The translations under genes were made by a program, and so were the position numbers. This document shows positions 1-43,575 of a stretch of DNA of 54,133 nucleotides, piece after piece. How positions within the stretch are numbered: position 1 is the stretch's first letter; the number at the start of each line of letters is the position of its first letter. Location of the stretch: the NCBI GenBank assembly GCA_903944085.1, contig CAJAQO010000279.1, positions 1 through 54,133 of the forward strand, read 5' to 3'. The notes below the pieces were generated by a model, which saw nothing but the letters and a program-made list of their open reading frames with translations, was not told where the DNA came from and ran no database searches. Source of the DNA: an uncultured Verrucomicrobia subdivision 3 bacterium. Its GTDB lineage: Bacteria > Verrucomicrobiota > Verrucomicrobiia > Limisphaerales > UBA11358.

Positions 1-147
1 GTCACGCCAACGGGCTTGGAGGTCACGCCAACGGGCTTGGAGGTCACGCCAACGGGCTTGGAGGTCACGCCAACGGGCTTGGAGGTCACGCCAACGGGCT
101 TGGAAGTCACGCCAACGGGCTTGGAAGTCGCACCAACGCCGTTGCTA
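1..147. repeat. 21-bp tandem repeat array 1 (7 units, cut by window start)
   Basis: Seven head-to-tail units of exactly 21 bp start at 1, 22, 43, 64, 85, 106 and 127. The first four are identical, units 5 and 6 change only their last base, and unit 7 is diverged. Each carries the core CCAACGGGCTTGG, whose outer CCAA and TTGG can pair. One forward frame stays open through the array as a seven-residue repeat (V-T-P-T-G-L-E) and ends at TGA 148-150, so it could be the tail of a gene entering from the left. I favour a non-coding array, because three other 21-bp-phased arrays in the window precede or lack genes in the same way. The left end lies outside the window. Confidence 0.95.
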
Positions 148-461: not shown

Positions 462-1358
462 ATGAAAGCAGAAGTCCAATTCATCATTGACCGGGCCAAG
501 GCGACCGATGCCGTCGCCGCCGCCATTCTGGCGGACTGGGAATGGCCCGAAGAAACCACCACCCAAATGCAGACCGAGACCAAGGCGCTGGAGGACCAGG
601 CCGATGTCTCCGACATCAAGGACACCGCCCTGACCAACGCCATCGCTCAGAAAAACCTGGCCTTCGACAACTATCATCAGACCACCGTCGCCCTGCTGGG
701 CATGACCCGGACGCATTACCGCAAGAACCCCGCCGCGACGGCGACGCTGAAAAACCTCCATGCCAAGGGCCAAAGCGACCAGGATATTCTGGATGAAGGC
801 GCCAAATTGGCCAAGGTCTGGGCGGAACTGGACACGACCTATGTGCCGGATGAAGGCTGGACGTTGACCGCGTTTGAAGCCGCCGGCACCGACTGCGGCA
901 CCAAAGCTGAAGCGGTGACCACGGCCGATGTGGCCTGGAGCACTGAATCCGCCAAGACCGATGCGATGGCCGCGCAGGTCAATGATGCCCGGATTGCCTG
1001 GTATGCCGATGCCACCAAGAAGTTCGGCCCGGACACGGAGCATGGCAAAACGATCCGCCAGGAAGTGCCCACCACCAGCCAGACCGTGCAACCGCCGGAC
1101 CCGCCGGTGGTCAAGGAGGCCCAGGCTTTGGGCGGCGGCAAGGTGCATATTGATTTTGCGCCGCCGGCTTCCGGCTACATTCAAATCTGGCATCAGGGGC
1201 CGGGCGACCCGGCGTTCACCGTGCTGGTGGACAAACTGACGACGGTGTATTTCGAGCAAAGCGGTTTCACGCCCGGCGCGCACAGTTTCAAGTTCGTCGG
1301 CATCAATACCGGCGGCTCCAGCGACGCCACCGCGCCCATCGTGGTCCAGGTGACGTGA
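462..1358 (+). CDS. Array-associated helical protein with FN3-like C-terminus
   Basis: A 298-residue protein of unknown function. Residues 1-205 are rich in Ala, Lys, Glu and Asp with few hydrophobic runs and read as mostly alpha-helical. After a proline-rich linker (QPPDPPVV, about 210) comes an FN3-like beta domain ending G-x-HSFKFVGIN, then a DATAPIVVQVT tail. There is no signal peptide or membrane segment, which is unusual for FN3 proteins. ATG 462 is chosen because the upstream open frame runs through array-like and AT-rich DNA with implausible composition. There is no clear Shine-Dalgarno, as with the other two array-associated genes. It sits downstream of array 1 on the same strand. 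A decayed copy of its 3' end lies at 4722-4802. The FN3 assignment is by pattern only. Confidence 0.75.
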   Translation: MKAEVQFIIDRAKATDAVAAAILADWEWPEETTTQMQTETKALEDQADVSDIKDTALTNAIAQKNLAFDNYHQTTVALLGMTRTHYRKNPAATATLKNLHAKGQSDQDILDEGAKLAKVWAELDTTYVPDEGWTLTAFEAAGTDCGTKAEAVTTADVAWSTESAKTDAMAAQVNDARIAWYADATKKFGPDTEHGKTIRQEVPTTSQTVQPPDPPVVKEAQALGGGKVHIDFAPPASGYIQIWHQGPGDPAFTVLVDKLTTVYFEQSGFTPGAHSFKFVGINTGGSSDATAPIVVQVT

Positions 1359-12847: not shown

Positions 12848-13244
12848 CCGGGTCCCGGTCGGGCACCAAACTACAGCCTGATAATTTTCCCGGCCGACCT
12901 AACCCTATTTTGGCAAAATGGTTCAAAATATTGTCATTTGACGATTTTTGATTGCCAAGCGGCATAAGCTTTGGTTTAACCGTCAGCATTGATTATGCAT
13001 TGGCTCTGGGTGACAAATTGCAGTCTGGTGGATTTGTTGGCAAACTTGGCGGACGCCTTTCAACAAAGCGCCATTTCCATATTCCTCTCCGGAGAATTTA
13101 ACCCGCGCAGCCGCAATTCATTTTCCTCCGCCCCGTCCGCGAGCCCTTTGGTGGTGATTTGCCTTGCCCAAATGGATACTGCTTTTGTTTCATTCCCGGC
13201 AGCAATTATTTCAGGCATCCCCAACCGCCATGCCCCGGCGAAAA
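12848..13244. other. Non-coding region upstream of array 2
   Basis: About 400 bases without a convincing gene. An open frame from 12989 exists only because the array downstream lacks stops; its product is a run of K-T-S-x-x-I-A-A-T-S fragments. The region holds a putative leader at 12922-12950. Between about 13198 and 13244 there may be further worn array units (for example one beginning at 13219). Confidence 0.6.
12922..12950 (+). promoter_or_regulatory. Putative conserved leader of array 2
   Basis: TTCAAA at 12922, GTCATTTGA at 12933-12941 and TTTGACGATTTTTG at 12937-12950. The region upstream of array 3 has TTCAAA at 43127, GTCATTTGA at 43140 and TTTGACATTTTTG at 43158. The shared words in the same order suggest a common promoter or leader, with TTTGAC as a possible -35. 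No convincing -10 was found. The similarity is short and in AT-rich DNA, so chance is not excluded. Confidence 0.45.
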
Positions 13245-13646
13245 CAACCCGGGCCACCGCCACCACCAGCCAGCCGGCCATCGAAATAACCCTGCTGGCC
13301 GTCAAAACAAGCCACGCAATCGCCGCCACAAGCCATGCGGCCGAAAAAACAAACCAAACAGTGGCTGCCACAAGTTGTATTTCGCCGTTCAGATCCTATC
13401 CGCCGTTAAATCAAGCCGCAAAATCAGAAAAACAAGCCAACCAAAGACTAACACAATCCAACCGGTGATTGGACGAGCGAATCCGTTCTTAAATCAACCC
13501 CAAAAGCGGTGGCAACAAGCCACGCCGCCACAAAAACAAGCCAAAGAATGTCCGCAGCAAGTCAGTGAACCATTAAAACAAGTCAAACAACGATAAAGTC
13601 CAGTGAAAACATGATAAAAACAAACTGCATAACCAACGAACAAACT
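13245..13646 (+). repeat. 21-bp phased degenerate repeat array 2 (about 20 units)
   Basis: A core word close to CAAGCC recurs at 13245, 13266, 13287, 13308, 13329, 13350, 13371, 13412, 13433, 13454, 13495, 13516, 13537, 13558, 13579, 13600, 13621 and 13641. Almost every step is exactly 21 bases (two are 20), with degenerate units at 13392 and 13474. It is usually preceded by AAAA or CCA. The other ten or so bases of each unit vary, and the G+C of the units falls towards the gene. The last unit ends about 20 bases before the ATG at 13667. The sequence is unrelated to array 1 but has the same period. There are no unique full-length spacers as in CRISPR. Confidence 0.9.
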
Positions 13647-13666
13647 CAAAAAACAACATAAAATCT

Positions 13667-14350
13667 ATGTCAAAAGCATATTTTATCCCACCTAATGTGC
13701 CCGGCAAGCGCCTGTGGCTCGGCAACTTCTCCGGCAAACTCCCCAAAGATGGCCCCAATGTCGGGGTCACGCCGGCGGAAATCGCCCAAACTACCGCCGA
13801 TAACTTATATTTCGGCTACGTCTGCGACCTGCATCACCAACACACCAAGACTACCCAGGATTGGACAGCCTATAAAAGCGCGCTCATTCGTGGCAGCAAC
13901 CTCGGTGATTTGCCGGTGACACCTGATCCCGGCACCCCGCCGCCGGCCGTGCCCGCCGGTATTTTCACTCGTGCCAGCACCTTGGCGGCACGCATCAAGA
14001 AACATCCCAATTACAACGAAGCCATCGGTCAGGACTTGGGCATCATCGGGTCCGAACAGATCATTGATTATGTCAACTTGAAACCGGTGCTGACCCTGGT
14101 GATGAAGGCCGGCCATCCGCACATCCTCTGGATCAAGCAGGGGATGGACGGAGTGGAAATTCTGGTGGACCGTGGCGATGGCAAGGGTTTTGGGTTTCTG
14201 GCCTACGCCACCTTGGGGGATTTTCTGGACACCGCACCGCTGCCGGCCGCCGGCACCAGCGTGGTTTGGAAATACAAGGCCATCTACCGCGAAGGCGACA
14301 CTCAGGTCGGCCAGTGGAGCGACGTGGCCAGCATCGCCGTGCTAGGCTGA
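13667..14350 (+). CDS. Array-associated protein with FN3-like C-terminus
   Basis: A 227-residue protein of unknown function. Residues 1-85 begin with an aromatic, proline-containing stretch (YFIPPNVPGKRLWLGNF) and then a helical part (TPAEIAQTTADNLYFGY...AYKSAL). A proline-rich linker (TPDPGTPPPAVPAG) leads to a second part with HPNYNEAIGQDLGIIG. From about 140 to the end it reads as an FN3-like beta domain (VWKYKAIYREGDTQVGQWSDVASIAV). There is no signal peptide or Shine-Dalgarno. The ATG lies immediately after array 2, and a hairpin follows the stop. N-terminal sequence is unlike the proteins at 462 and 43622, though all share the layout of a variable helical part, linker and FN3-like end. 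Confidence 0.8.
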   Translation: MSKAYFIPPNVPGKRLWLGNFSGKLPKDGPNVGVTPAEIAQTTADNLYFGYVCDLHHQHTKTTQDWTAYKSALIRGSNLGDLPVTPDPGTPPPAVPAGIFTRASTLAARIKKHPNYNEAIGQDLGIIGSEQIIDYVNLKPVLTLVMKAGHPHILWIKQGMDGVEILVDRGDGKGFGFLAYATLGDFLDTAPLPAAGTSVVWKYKAIYREGDTQVGQWSDVASIAVLG

Positions 14351-14358
14351 AACAATTC

Positions 14359-14384
14359 AAGGGGCTTGCACCGGCAAGCCCCTT
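14359..14384 (+). terminator. Hairpin after the array 2 gene
   Basis: AAGGGGCTTGC-ACCG-GCAAGCCCCTT is a perfect 11-bp stem with a 4-base loop, starting nine bases after the stop codon. Only a short GGCTTT follows rather than a full T-run, so termination strength is uncertain. It probably marks the 3' end of the array-gene transcript. Confidence 0.65.
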
Positions 14385-14540
14385 GGCTTTACCCAGCCGC
14401 CGTGATTTTACATCGCCGGGAAGTATTTTTTCCCGGCTAAAGTCCAGCGTTTGCGAGGGCTCGAGTTTTTAATCAAAATCATGCCTTGTTTTATGGATCG
14501 AAAATTCGCGTCCGGGCAAAACGACTCCAGAAGAAAGCTG

Positions 14541-16853
14541 ATGGATGAAATGAAAATCGAAAATCGGATTGGAAAATTATGGGTCACATTCGGTTTGGCT
14601 GTTCTTTTAACCGTTCACAACGGAATTGGACAGTCCGTTGCGGCAGATTCGGTTGTCCGCGTGGTGGCGGACGCCCAGGGTCTGGCCTTGGTGCCGCCGG
14701 ATCAGGTGCCGCCGTTTGGAACTTTTTGGGTGGTGAGTCCGGGATTCAGCAGCATGCCCGCGCCGCTGCCTTGCGCGCCGCTGGAGCCAAATCAAGCCAT
14801 CTATCAGATCGCCGATGGACAGTTTTTGGTGGATGCCACTGCCAGTGAACCATCGTCGTCCGGCCGGGCTGTGAATCCCAGCCGCGCCGCCGCCGCCGTG
14901 CTCGCGCAGGCGGATGCGCTCGCCGCGTTGGTGACGGACTTGCAAACTGTGACGGCCAACCGGCAGTTGCGGGGCCTGGGCATGAATGGGCTGATTCCCA
15001 TTGGCGGCGGATCGGGCGATTATGGCGACGGCGGCGCTCCGGCCGGTAAACAAATGCCAATTGACACGAACCGCCTTTGGCTGGAAATCATCACGGTCAC
15101 CAACCAGACCGCTTTGCTGGTGATTCATCCCCCGGCGGGCGTGACGAATGAAGTGTATGATCTGCTTTACGCCACGAACCTGCTGACGCCGCCGGCCGCG
15201 TGGCAGTGGGTGCTGCGCAGCTACCCCGACCAAACCAATTTGATCGTGCTCAACGCGAAAGACGCACAGGGCTTTTACCGGCTCAGTTCACCCAATGACA
15301 GTGTCGCGAAGAGTTCCCTGGGCACCAACTTCTGGCTGGCGTTTCCGTCCCTGTATAATGATGGCAGCAATCAACTATCGCTGATCATTTCCAGTCCGGC
15401 GGGTGCCACGGGAACGGTGACGCTGCCGGGATTGTGGACCAATGGCCCGACGGTGATTGTGAGCGGGGGCGGCGATGCGGCGGTGAATGGAACCAATGTA
15501 TTCAGGAAGCTCACCGCGCCGGAACAAGCGGCTTGGGCGGCCACCGGGCTTGATCCTATTTTCACCGGTTATATCCGGGACACAAACTGGGTGGTGGTTT
15601 ATGCCGGCTATTGTTATATCGTGACCTACGACAGCCGCGCGACCAATTGCACGCTGCTTTATGACAAATACGACATTAACCTCACCGGCAGCACGAATGA
15701 GTGGCAGGCTTATGACGCCGATCCCTCCTTAGCGACGCCGGCAACTTACTGTGCGCAAGTGCCGCTTGTGAGCCAGTTCTTTACGGTGGCGGCGGGCGCG
15801 GCAACCAATATCAGCGTCCCGCTGGCGGCCATGCTGGAAGATTACGATATGGTGGAAGCCAATGGCATCCAAGTTACTTCTAGCGCGCCAGTGTCGGTGT
15901 ATGGGCTGGATTATGATCCGACTGTCTCCGCGGCGTTCACCGGTTACCCGACGCCTCTGCTGGGAACCAATTATTGTGTCCTGTCTCGTGCAGGTTGGCT
16001 GGGTCTTTCCGAGCTGGCCATTGTCGCCACAATGAGCAACACGACCGTCAGAATCACACCTTCAGCAACGGCCGACCTGCCGGGGTATGCCACAACCAAT
16101 TTTTACTATGTGCCAACGATGCAGGCCGGCCAAACTTATCAAATTGCCAGTTTGACCCCCGGTGACGACGTGACGGGCACGTGGATTCAATCAGACAAAC
16201 CGATTGCCGTGTTTGCGGGCACGACAGTCGCCGATGTGCCCGATGGGGGCACCGTCACCGCCAATCCGCTAATGCAGGAACAAATGCCTGTGGAATCATG
16301 GGGCAGTCAAGTGTTAACACTCTCCTTCGCGGGACGCGGCGGCGGGGATACTTATCGAGTTCTCTCGGCTTCCAGCAACAATCTGGTGACGATAACGACC
16401 GCCGACGGGACTTTTGTTGCGAACCTGTCGGCGGGAGGATTTTGTGACACGAATCTGGATGGGCCAGTCGAATTTCTGGCCAGCCAACCTGTCCAGATAG
16501 CTCATTTTGCCGATGGAGCGACATTAGGTGGCGACCCGGGCGATCCCTGCGAGATACTCTTGCCGCCCATCAGCCATTGCTTGATGACAAATATCGTGGT
16601 CATACCTGGAGGTTTTGACCTTAATTATCTGAACCTTATTGTGCCACAATCGGCCATAACGAACACAATTCTGAATGGTTCGTTCGTGGCAGCGACCAAT
16701 TTTCTCGCAATTGGGACAAGTGGTTTTTTTGGTGCGCAAATTCCTGTTACAAATGGCGTGTGGAAAGTGACCAGTTCCCAACCTGTGGACGTTGAGGTTT
16801 ATGGTTTCAGCTTCCGAGACGCCTACGGTTGTTTTGGCGGCATCATCAAATAA
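14541..16853 (+). CDS. Secreted IgGFc-binding-domain-like protein
   Basis: A 770-residue protein. ATG 14541 follows AGAAGAAAG and begins a signal peptide (hydrophobic run LWVTFGLAVLLTV, cleavage near GIGQSVAAD). Residues 30-270 are a low-complexity N-terminal part typical of this group. Residues 280-770 resemble the IgGFc-binding N-terminal domain family: GTNFWLAFPS at the start, IQSDKPIAVFAG, QEQMPVESWGSQV, YRVLSASSNN, VEFLASQPVQIAHFADG and SSQPVDVEVYGFSFRDAYG. In other bacteria such domains are in cell-surface adhesins. The gene is followed 32 bases later by the PEP-CTERM gene. The family call rests on motif recollection, so the exact function is open. Confidence 0.75.
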   Translation: MDEMKIENRIGKLWVTFGLAVLLTVHNGIGQSVAADSVVRVVADAQGLALVPPDQVPPFGTFWVVSPGFSSMPAPLPCAPLEPNQAIYQIADGQFLVDATASEPSSSGRAVNPSRAAAAVLAQADALAALVTDLQTVTANRQLRGLGMNGLIPIGGGSGDYGDGGAPAGKQMPIDTNRLWLEIITVTNQTALLVIHPPAGVTNEVYDLLYATNLLTPPAAWQWVLRSYPDQTNLIVLNAKDAQGFYRLSSPNDSVAKSSLGTNFWLAFPSLYNDGSNQLSLIISSPAGATGTVTLPGLWTNGPTVIVSGGGDAAVNGTNVFRKLTAPEQAAWAATGLDPIFTGYIRDTNWVVVYAGYCYIVTYDSRATNCTLLYDKYDINLTGSTNEWQAYDADPSLATPATYCAQVPLVSQFFTVAAGAATNISVPLAAMLEDYDMVEANGIQVTSSAPVSVYGLDYDPTVSAAFTGYPTPLLGTNYCVLSRAGWLGLSELAIVATMSNTTVRITPSATADLPGYATTNFYYVPTMQAGQTYQIASLTPGDDVTGTWIQSDKPIAVFAGTTVADVPDGGTVTANPLMQEQMPVESWGSQVLTLSFAGRGGGDTYRVLSASSNNLVTITTADGTFVANLSAGGFCDTNLDGPVEFLASQPVQIAHFADGATLGGDPGDPCEILLPPISHCLMTNIVVIPGGFDLNYLNLIVPQSAITNTILNGSFVAATNFLAIGTSGFFGAQIPVTNGVWKVTSSQPVDVEVYGFSFRDAYGCFGGIIK

Positions 16854-16885
16854 AAATTTGTCTGATAAAACGAAACGATACCTAT

Positions 16886-17545
16886 ATGAAAAAAGTAATC
16901 ATTGCGTTTGTGACCGGACTGTTGACGCAACAAATCGCGCCGGCACAAGGAACAGTTTATCTATCTAACCTTGGCGTGGGTCTCGGCAGTGACCTTGGCG
17001 TGGGAAGTAATTCATGGCTCTCGGTGTTGTTTACCACTGGAACCAACGCCGGCGGATATGCTCTCAATTCCATTCAGCTTGAGATGGGAAATGCTTTTGG
17101 CAATCCCAGTGGCTTCACAACCATGCTTTACACAGGACCCTTCAGCGGTCCTCCACGTAGCCTTGGCACACTGAACGGTTCCGCCGACCCGTCCACCAAC
17201 GGCGTATACATTTATTCTCCCGCTGCAGATATTAGCTTATCGCCCGGCACATTTTATATGCTTGTGCTAGGCGCAGAGACACCATTTGTCAGTGGTGCCT
17301 CGGGCGTGCCCCTTGGCTATGTGTGGAATAGAGCGCTGAATACGGCCTCCCAACACAATCCAATGGGTGGCTGGACTGGAGGCGACGGCTATTCTTATTC
17401 CACGGATAATGGTTCGTCTTGGAATTTTATTTCAGGTATTGACCCTCAATATGCCATAACTGCCACCGCCATTCCTGAACCGGATGTTTTAAGTTTGTTC
17501 GCTTTGGGCGGCTTAGGCTTGCTCTGGCACCGCCGGAGAATTTAG
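16886..17545 (+). CDS. PEP-CTERM protein, choice-of-anchor R type
   Basis: A 219-residue exported protein. It has a signal peptide (MKKVIIAFVTGLLTQQIAPA). The central beta domain (SWLSVLFTTGTNAGGYALNS... MLYTGPFSG...SPGTFYMLVLG) is of the choice-of-anchor R type. The end is the sorting signal A-I-P-E-P-D followed by a hydrophobic stretch and HRRRI. Such tails are recognised by exosortase, which anchors or releases the protein together with exopolysaccharide. No exosortase gene is in the window. ATG 16886 starts the signal peptide; an upstream in-frame start overlaps the previous gene. A decayed second copy of the sorting tail lies at 17689-17780. Confidence 0.88.
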   Translation: MKKVIIAFVTGLLTQQIAPAQGTVYLSNLGVGLGSDLGVGSNSWLSVLFTTGTNAGGYALNSIQLEMGNAFGNPSGFTTMLYTGPFSGPPRSLGTLNGSADPSTNGVYIYSPAADISLSPGTFYMLVLGAETPFVSGASGVPLGYVWNRALNTASQHNPMGGWTGGDGYSYSTDNGSSWNFISGIDPQYAITATAIPEPDVLSLFALGGLGLLWHRRRI

Positions 17546-27401: not shown

Positions 27402-27434
27402 GCGCGCAACCGAAAGGTTGCGCGCTTTTGTTTT
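27402..27434 (+). terminator. Strong intrinsic terminator
   Basis: GCGCGCAACC-GAAA-GGTTGCGCGC is a perfect 10-bp stem closed by a GAAA tetraloop, followed by TTTTGTTTT. It lies 27 bases after the stop of the small secreted protein and isolates it from array 4. Confidence 0.95.
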
Positions 27435-27458
27435 GGAATGTGCGGACATGTCCACGCT

Positions 27459-27790
27459 TTCCCACTGGGAGAAATGTCTTCCACTGGGAAAGCGGCGACC
27501 TGTCACCGCACTTCAGGTGAGAACGGCGCTCCGCCTTTCAAAACGGCCAGTTTTCCCTTGTATTTGTCAGAAAGTGCGAAGAATTTGTCTCGCAGCGGAT
27601 GCGATTTCCCTCGAAGCACGCACGCTTTTTGGAAAAGCACGCTTGATTTTAGGAAAATCGAGCTTGATTTGTCACAACTCAACTGTGCTTTTCCTAAAAT
27701 CGCTTGCGCTTTGCCTCATGTCATGCGCGATTTCAGAGAAATTGCGGGTGTTCAGAGCAAAATCGCCGGCACCGCAACCTCAAGCGACGG
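27459..27790. repeat. 21-bp phased palindromic array 4 (orphan)
   Basis: Units with the pattern G-(A/C)-T-T-T recur at exactly 21-base steps: 27561, 27582, 27603, 27624, 27645, 27666, 27687, 27708, 27729 and 27750. Looser units extend back to about 27459, including two CCACTGGG copies, and on to about 27790. Several units hold a dyad around three central bases: GCTTTT-TGG-AAAAGC at 27624, GATTTT-AGG-AAAATC at 27645, and ATTTC-AGA-GAAAT at 27730. The sequence is unlike the other arrays. No FN3-like gene follows on either strand; the M48 gene is convergent. Direction is unknown. Confidence 0.85.
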
Positions 27791-43255: not shown

Positions 43256-43575
43256 AGCGGCCAGGGATCGCCGCTGTTTCCACCCCATCACGTTGGTCGT
43301 TTCACCCCGCCACCGCCGTGGCTGCCCGCCCTGCCTGCTCGTTTTGCCCCGGCACCGCCGTGGCGTGCCCAAACGACCGTCGTTTTGCCCGCCCACGGCC
43401 GTGCCGCCCCAAACGGCCAGCCCGCTCACCCGCACACCGCCGTGGCTGGCCGCCGCGACCAGCCGTTTCACTCCGCCACGGCCATGGCAGCCGGAAACGA
43501 GCGTCGTTTTGGCCGGACACGGCCGTGGCCGGCCGAAAAGATCGTCGTTTTCATCAGCCACGCCCGTTTTGAGCA
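43256..43575 (+). repeat. Array 3: about seven 41-bp palindromic repeat units
   Basis: CGTTT(T/C) recurs at 43298, 43340, 43381, 43423 (as CGCTCA), 43464, 43505 and 43546, steps of 41-42 bases. Midway in each unit lies a dyad near CCACGGCCGTGG: 43309, 43351, 43392, 43433, 43475, 43516 and 43557. The junctions are also dyads, for example AAACGACCGTCGTTT at 43371-43385. The array is thus a chain of about 21-base half-units in alternating orientation. A weaker unit may start near 43256. The non-integral codon period argues against a coding repeat. Forty-six bases separate it from the next ATG, with TAACTCCTA twice. Confidence 0.9.

Follow-up and report, generated by a model that had tools for sequence, protein, structure and literature searches.

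Phased 21-bp arrays of free unit sequence upstream of small gene families, at least two of them fibronectin-like, in some Verrucomicrobiota

What is a run of degenerate 21-bp units doing directly ahead of a small gene with an FN3-like fold? The question arose from a contig of 54,133 nucleotides (the window, by which the whole stretch is meant) from an uncultured Verrucomicrobia subdivision 3 bacterium, whose genome is assigned to the same genus as genome G021. The initial annotation had proposed an array phased at 21 bp, and the autocorrelation that it called for bears this out. Between 13200 and 13666, identity reaches 0.464, 0.446 and 0.421 at lags of 42, 21 and 63, respectively, while 500 dinucleotide shuffles of the same segment give 0.293 at lag 21 (sd 0.022, maximum 0.350) and no more than 0.386 at any lag from 2 to 89. 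A strict search for CAA[GA][CT] finds 14 sites, 12 of which are in phase. The two 20-base steps described at the outset equal in number the two register slips counted by the decoder; read by eye, the array has three slips of −1 (13371–13412, 13454–13495 and 13621 to 13641). The right-hand boundary, first placed at 14384, lies beyond the gene, and the units stop near 13661, just short of the ATG at 13667. The stretch 12850–13666 has no sibling elsewhere in the window's own genome. The features of the window that bear on the question are listed in Table 1.

Table 1. Period-21 tracts of the window and the genes and spacer that adjoin them.
Feature	Position	Strand	Description
Second 21-bp array, near-perfect	1..147		Unit GTCACGCCAACGGGCTTGGAG; TRF 97% matches over 1-138
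298-aa gene following array 1-147	462..1358	+	No convincing Pfam or NCBIfam family
Intergenic stretch	12848..13244		Between AhpC/TSA-type gene and array
Degenerate 21-bp array	13245..13661		About 20 units, CAAGCC-like core; from autocorrelation, row alignment and decoder
FN3-like gene	13667..14350	+	227-aa protein, N-terminal helices, C-terminal FN3-like sandwich
Third period-21 tract, degenerate, orphan	27470..27760 (approx.)		No type-A gene close by

The FN3-like character of the linked gene, also part of the first description, is supported by an AlphaFold model of its product (mean pLDDT 89.8), for which Foldseek places FN3-type domains among the best PDB matches (best E 9.6e-5); searches of Pfam, NCBIfam and PHROGs with E values allowed up to 1 assigned this protein to no family. 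Neither a sigma-70-like site on the plus strand nor a terminator-like site was detected in the spacer before the array. Downstream of the gene, 14451–17545 encodes a protein with an IgGFc-binding domain, followed by a PEP-CTERM protein. Elsewhere in the window, a tandem repeat of period 41 lies at 43339–43551 (about 5 copies, 69% matches), and a REP-like palindromic element at 27430–27515 gives 56 match rows in the genome, its own among them, at roughly 40 distinct places, sometimes near 21-bp arrays or array genes (C306, C33 and C39). Contig C306 terminates within the unit of array 1–147; it was considered as a separate partner array and set aside, since the match lies at a contig end and is probably the same array split by assembly. 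At C33:61306 and C220:168 of G000, lone copies of the core of this unit each adjoin a degenerate array of another unit, and these two degenerate arrays look near-identical to each other.

The window array proved to be one member of a class of arrays in some Verrucomicrobiota. Arrays of this class precede small genes that belong to several families, of which at least two are fibronectin-like, and also occupy other genomic sites. Relatives of the FN3-like gene (the type A family) are patchy and multi-copy, with up to 13 matches per genome; they occur in 16 of 40 near-relative genomes, counting the window's own and some with fragments only, and in 6 of 387 genomes sampled across the phylum, again counting its own. 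From 55 match rows, eight short fragments were removed and three rows covering a single broken gene merged, leaving 45 loci including the window gene, to which the first gene of the window, of another type, was added. In two of these 46 loci, the sequence upstream was too short for the scan. Relatives with the gene and without periodic DNA upstream had been named beforehand as evidence against the array, and the 44 testable loci turned out otherwise: the best upstream period is exactly 21 in 43 of them, 41 of which score 0.42 or higher, and the sole exception is a broken gene. Downstream scores at these loci are all 0.39 or lower. Among 18 distant loci, 12 of the 17 testable have period 21 upstream, 11 of them at 0.42 or more; of the five that do not, one is a fragment, and another two have their start at the edge of a contig.

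The same arrangement recurs ahead of other genes. For the L148-like family, whose fn3 match falls slightly under the Pfam cut-off, an upstream array scoring at least 0.42 is present in 24 of 30 scanned loci (out of 61 match rows) and a downstream one in none of the 30. For the family of the 298-aa gene, nine match rows gave eight scanned loci (the window being omitted), one with too little upstream sequence, and the corresponding counts are 6/7 upstream and 0/8 downstream. With one distant type-A protein as query, no relatives were found on plasmids, in phages or in IMG/VR, and one L148-like protein gave none on plasmids. Between array and gene at eight loci (L072, L066, L063, L070, L076, L056, L011 and L040) are short, similar-looking open reading frames (MKPLHWDAGYRWDDPNLRWG, MNWDNGQWD, MALWSNGTLW) that end just 5' of the FN3-type gene.

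What the members share is hardly their sequence. The initial annotation described a single array and missed its membership in a class whose units vary freely in sequence. Most consensus units bear no relation to one another (mean similarity 0.31 against a null of 0.29), and just 22 of 2556 array pairs lie above 99.9% of the null, among them L009/L025 and L007/L008, each split between two genomes, and two pairs within G019. No palindrome is common to the dispersed arrays, as it would be in REP or BIME elements, and only small sets share cores. Among paralogues, related loci with genes 82–92% alike in nucleotides and a common 5' flank of 133–432 bp nevertheless carry different units (L046/L048, L009/L024, L070 or L076/L078, L010/L032), all of these pairs lying outside the 30 most similar array pairs. 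The units of L050/L051 are partly alike (0.64) and those of L070/L076 nearly identical (0.99). The register is well but imperfectly kept. At a strict setting, 58 gene-linked arrays with 853 units between them contain 9 internal indels. An early impression that indels were nearly absent (6 in 816 units) was weakened by a permissive decoder, which infers 59 among the 1040 units of 72 arrays.

In the genome of one relative, G019, arrays are copied in the form of short non-coding elements. A scan of periods 13–39 over 399 kb found 18 periodic tracts, 17 of them with period 21. Three precede a gene of the FN3 kind (L168, by eye only, L174 and L181a), and 14 are orphans with no recognised gene of that kind beside them, a status judged from open reading frames by eye, with one side of two of the 14 beyond the sequence examined. 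At least four of the orphans sit between convergent genes. All 19 occurrences of the 12-bp word AAGCTCCCGCTT fall within two arrays, one an orphan and one before an L148-like gene, where variable stretches of 9 bp separate the copies, and the exact pattern ACAGACGTCTNT is confined to two other arrays. Five arrays share a 5' flank at the array edge and have two core types, one of the five preceding a recognised FN3-type gene; the C28 copy matches that at C85 nearly unit by unit, spacers included, with one unit fewer. It is the common flank and the near unit-by-unit match that indicate copying. Sampling of other genomes gave 3 arrays over 229 kb for the window's own, 2 over 200 kb for G273 and 1 over 97 kb for G014, with none in 100 kb sampled elsewhere in the genome of G017, although family A is present there; the own-genome sampling took 20 stretches, of which five read as N and were excluded, as were about three of 20 other stretches. 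Four genomes without family A had no arrays in 312 kb, though one of them, G006, has one L148-like gene, and a weak array (0.43) precedes it.

Such copying gives the main rival to the explanation favoured below, namely a non-coding mobile or satellite-like element that spreads with constant flanks, is born as a near-perfect 21-bp tandem and then decays, with the FN3-type genes as its cargo or preferred neighbours and the period of 21 as a trace of the copying mechanism. The G019 copies suit it, as do the near-perfect arrays (L070, L076 and window 1–147) and the limits of homology between paralogues: of the pairs whose ends were read, three lose homology at the stop codon of the gene or close to it, and the G273 set loses it at the stop codon of a second small open reading frame; at L090/L091, some likeness persists past the stop codon. 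Placement only upstream at three gene families speaks against it, as does the fact that divergent arrays largely hold register and keep some columns conserved. On balance, we consider a mobile element somewhat unlikely as the explanation.

If not the sequence of the unit, what is constrained? Coding was the simplest candidate, as 21 nucleotides would make seven codons of a heptad-repeat peptide, and a forward frame is open in 43 of 55 arrays against 25.7 expected. The reverse strand, however, is open in 32 against 19.1 expected, and the seeming avoidance of stop codons on the sense strand (285 seen, 324 expected) is mostly a matter of dinucleotide composition. Open forward frames have a synonymous ratio of 0.98 and the remaining frames one of 1.05, conservation along the arrays has no period of 3, and of the 59 inferred indels, 16 are multiples of 3 and 43 are not. 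A heptad peptide was rejected on these grounds and is scarcely credible, in agreement with the non-coding nature first ascribed to the array.

The next candidate is a structured 5' leader RNA of tandem hairpins. Some arrays may be transcribed, given that 11 of 55 end no more than 60 bp ahead of the start codon, and they do contain inverted repeats: the fold z-score against column-permuted arrays averages −3.17 on the sense strand. It averages −3.17 on the antisense strand too (55 arrays), mismatches at the dyads have no G-U preference (584 G.T against 673 A.C), and there is no Rfam match at the gathering score (20 sources). The equality of the strands and the lack of a G-U preference point to symmetry of the DNA rather than folding of RNA, and a leader RNA, one of three roles originally envisaged, is very improbable. 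For curved DNA, the second of the three, the mean weak/strong autocorrelation over 72 arrays is −0.001 and −0.003 at lags 10 and 11, slightly higher than at most other lags (−0.02 to −0.04); A-tract curvature, judged by this measure, would seem to have little support. The third, a protein filament on one face of the DNA, is still the best of them, though as a predicted role.

The dyads themselves are widespread. Their excess is positive in 60 of 72 arrays, and dyad or direct-repeat sites at helical spacing, as in tandem operators, are found in most of the class, with the window array as a member that has no dyad signal (z −1.9; −0.5 sense and +0.8 antisense in a separate fold test). Column conservation is less even than uniform decay predicts in 43 of 72 arrays, a count that common ancestry of the units may inflate. 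In arrays with a consensus dyad match of at least 0.40, it peaks 1.5–3.5 bp from dyad centres that fall between bases and about 6 bp from those on a base, and is lowest far from the centre. The two arms covary weakly, with a mean z of 0.47 (se 0.15). The idea that older arrays would be more palindromic failed (correlation 0.04).

Dyads at the DNA level, taken together with 17 arrays in 399 kb and the orphans between convergent genes, would also fit sites that structure the chromosome by binding gyrase or a nucleoid protein, in the manner of BIMEs and with no gene-specific role. The strong link to particular genes, on their upstream side only, and the patchy presence of arrays among genomes argue against this, and we regard it as distinctly unlikely.

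The explanation that we prefer, tentatively and with less than even confidence, is that the arrays are helically phased tandem operators for a putative oligomerising DNA-binding protein. It is favoured because symmetry of the DNA and spacing seem to be what is constrained, in a position ahead of a gene, and because a DNA-binding gene sometimes adjoins. Each unit would comprise one dyad-symmetric site of about 10–14 bp plus a spacer, and sites repeated every two helical turns would all lie on the same side of the DNA. A small dimeric protein, perhaps the HTH_3 protein encoded upstream where there is one, would bind side by side and spread cooperatively across some 130–475 bp, acting as a repressor or roadblock on the co-directional gene that starts 18–532 bp past the array. 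Orphan arrays would be dispersed copies: remnants, or sites at which this protein may be titrated. Protein binding, cooperativity and regulation are what we infer here from the genes and their DNA.

The HTH genes are informative on both sides. A same-strand HTH reading frame lies upstream in 10 of 60 loci, within up to 4.5 kb searched (shorter at contig ends), and all five that were scanned exceed the Pfam HTH_3 cut-off; L046 adds a truncated relative. The HTH proteins upstream of the arrays at L048, L044, L033 and L023 have in common a C-terminal cysteine pattern, CxxxCxxxxxCxxxxC. Against operators is the presence of HTH genes at just those 10 loci, and also the pair L009 and L024, whose HTH genes are very similar and whose array units differ, although by eye both contain AACTT...AAGGT words. 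As units are mostly unrelated, no single protein could read all arrays, and a promoter operator makes little sense for orphans placed between convergent genes. The missing dyad signal of the window array, the empty 100 kb of G017 and an arm-to-arm covariation slightly above what a plain operator predicts also count against operators. Operators and a satellite-like mobile element may both hold.

A bolder proposal, which we put forward as a long shot, is that these bacteria have machinery that writes 21-bp arrays from arbitrary seeds, re-writes their units and copies finished arrays elsewhere. It would account for closely related paralogues in which gene and flank persist while the unit is entirely different, with the register unchanged. 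If it were true, the array would act as a replaceable address by which each protein, or its regulator, is matched to private genomic sites. Whatever their origin, the arrays raise the question of how one can replace all its units yet hold its register. They also tie unnamed gene families, multi-copy in some genomes, to a putative DNA-binding system that can be tested. As the class is defined by a fixed beat and a position rather than by sequence, similarity searches would hardly detect it. No description of such arrays was found in the open-access literature, most subscription papers being outside that coverage.

Several known systems nonetheless invite comparison. A CRISPR has one conserved repeat, longer unique spacers and cas genes. 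Some of the arrays (L178b, L181a) resemble it in combining a constant core with a variable spacer; compared on repeat architecture, they differ in that the core changes from array to array and the spacers are about 9 bp. The units are 21 bp throughout, a size unlike that of CRISPR repeats, and differ in sequence per array; on this architecture, the early verdict that this is not a CRISPR is supported. Plasmid iterons and centromere repeats of the ParR/TubR type are spaced by whole helical turns and bound by oligomers. The arrays are alike in their spacing, while they lie on chromosomal contigs in many copies per genome, and no gene for replication or partition was noticed in passing among their neighbours. 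Closer to the proposed protein is BldC, which in the part of its report consulted binds direct repeats of varying number as cooperative head-to-tail multimers and forms filaments (PMC5859096). The likeness lies in repeated sites of varying number and putative stacking of protein; the BldC sites in that same part comprise two or four repeats, whereas the arrays have 6–22 units, mostly dyad-like, of locus-specific sequence and a fixed 21 bp (PMC5859096). REP and BIME elements, in the consulted section of their source, are dispersed extragenic palindromes (PMC3733652), and REPs as given there share sequence, while the 21-bp arrays mostly share just their period. Finally, the Beggiatoaceae carry intergenic TAACTGA heptamer repeats genome-wide and close upstream of genes, going by the excerpt consulted (PMC4679880); those repeats are one fixed heptamer, and the present arrays are of free sequence in a 21-bp register.
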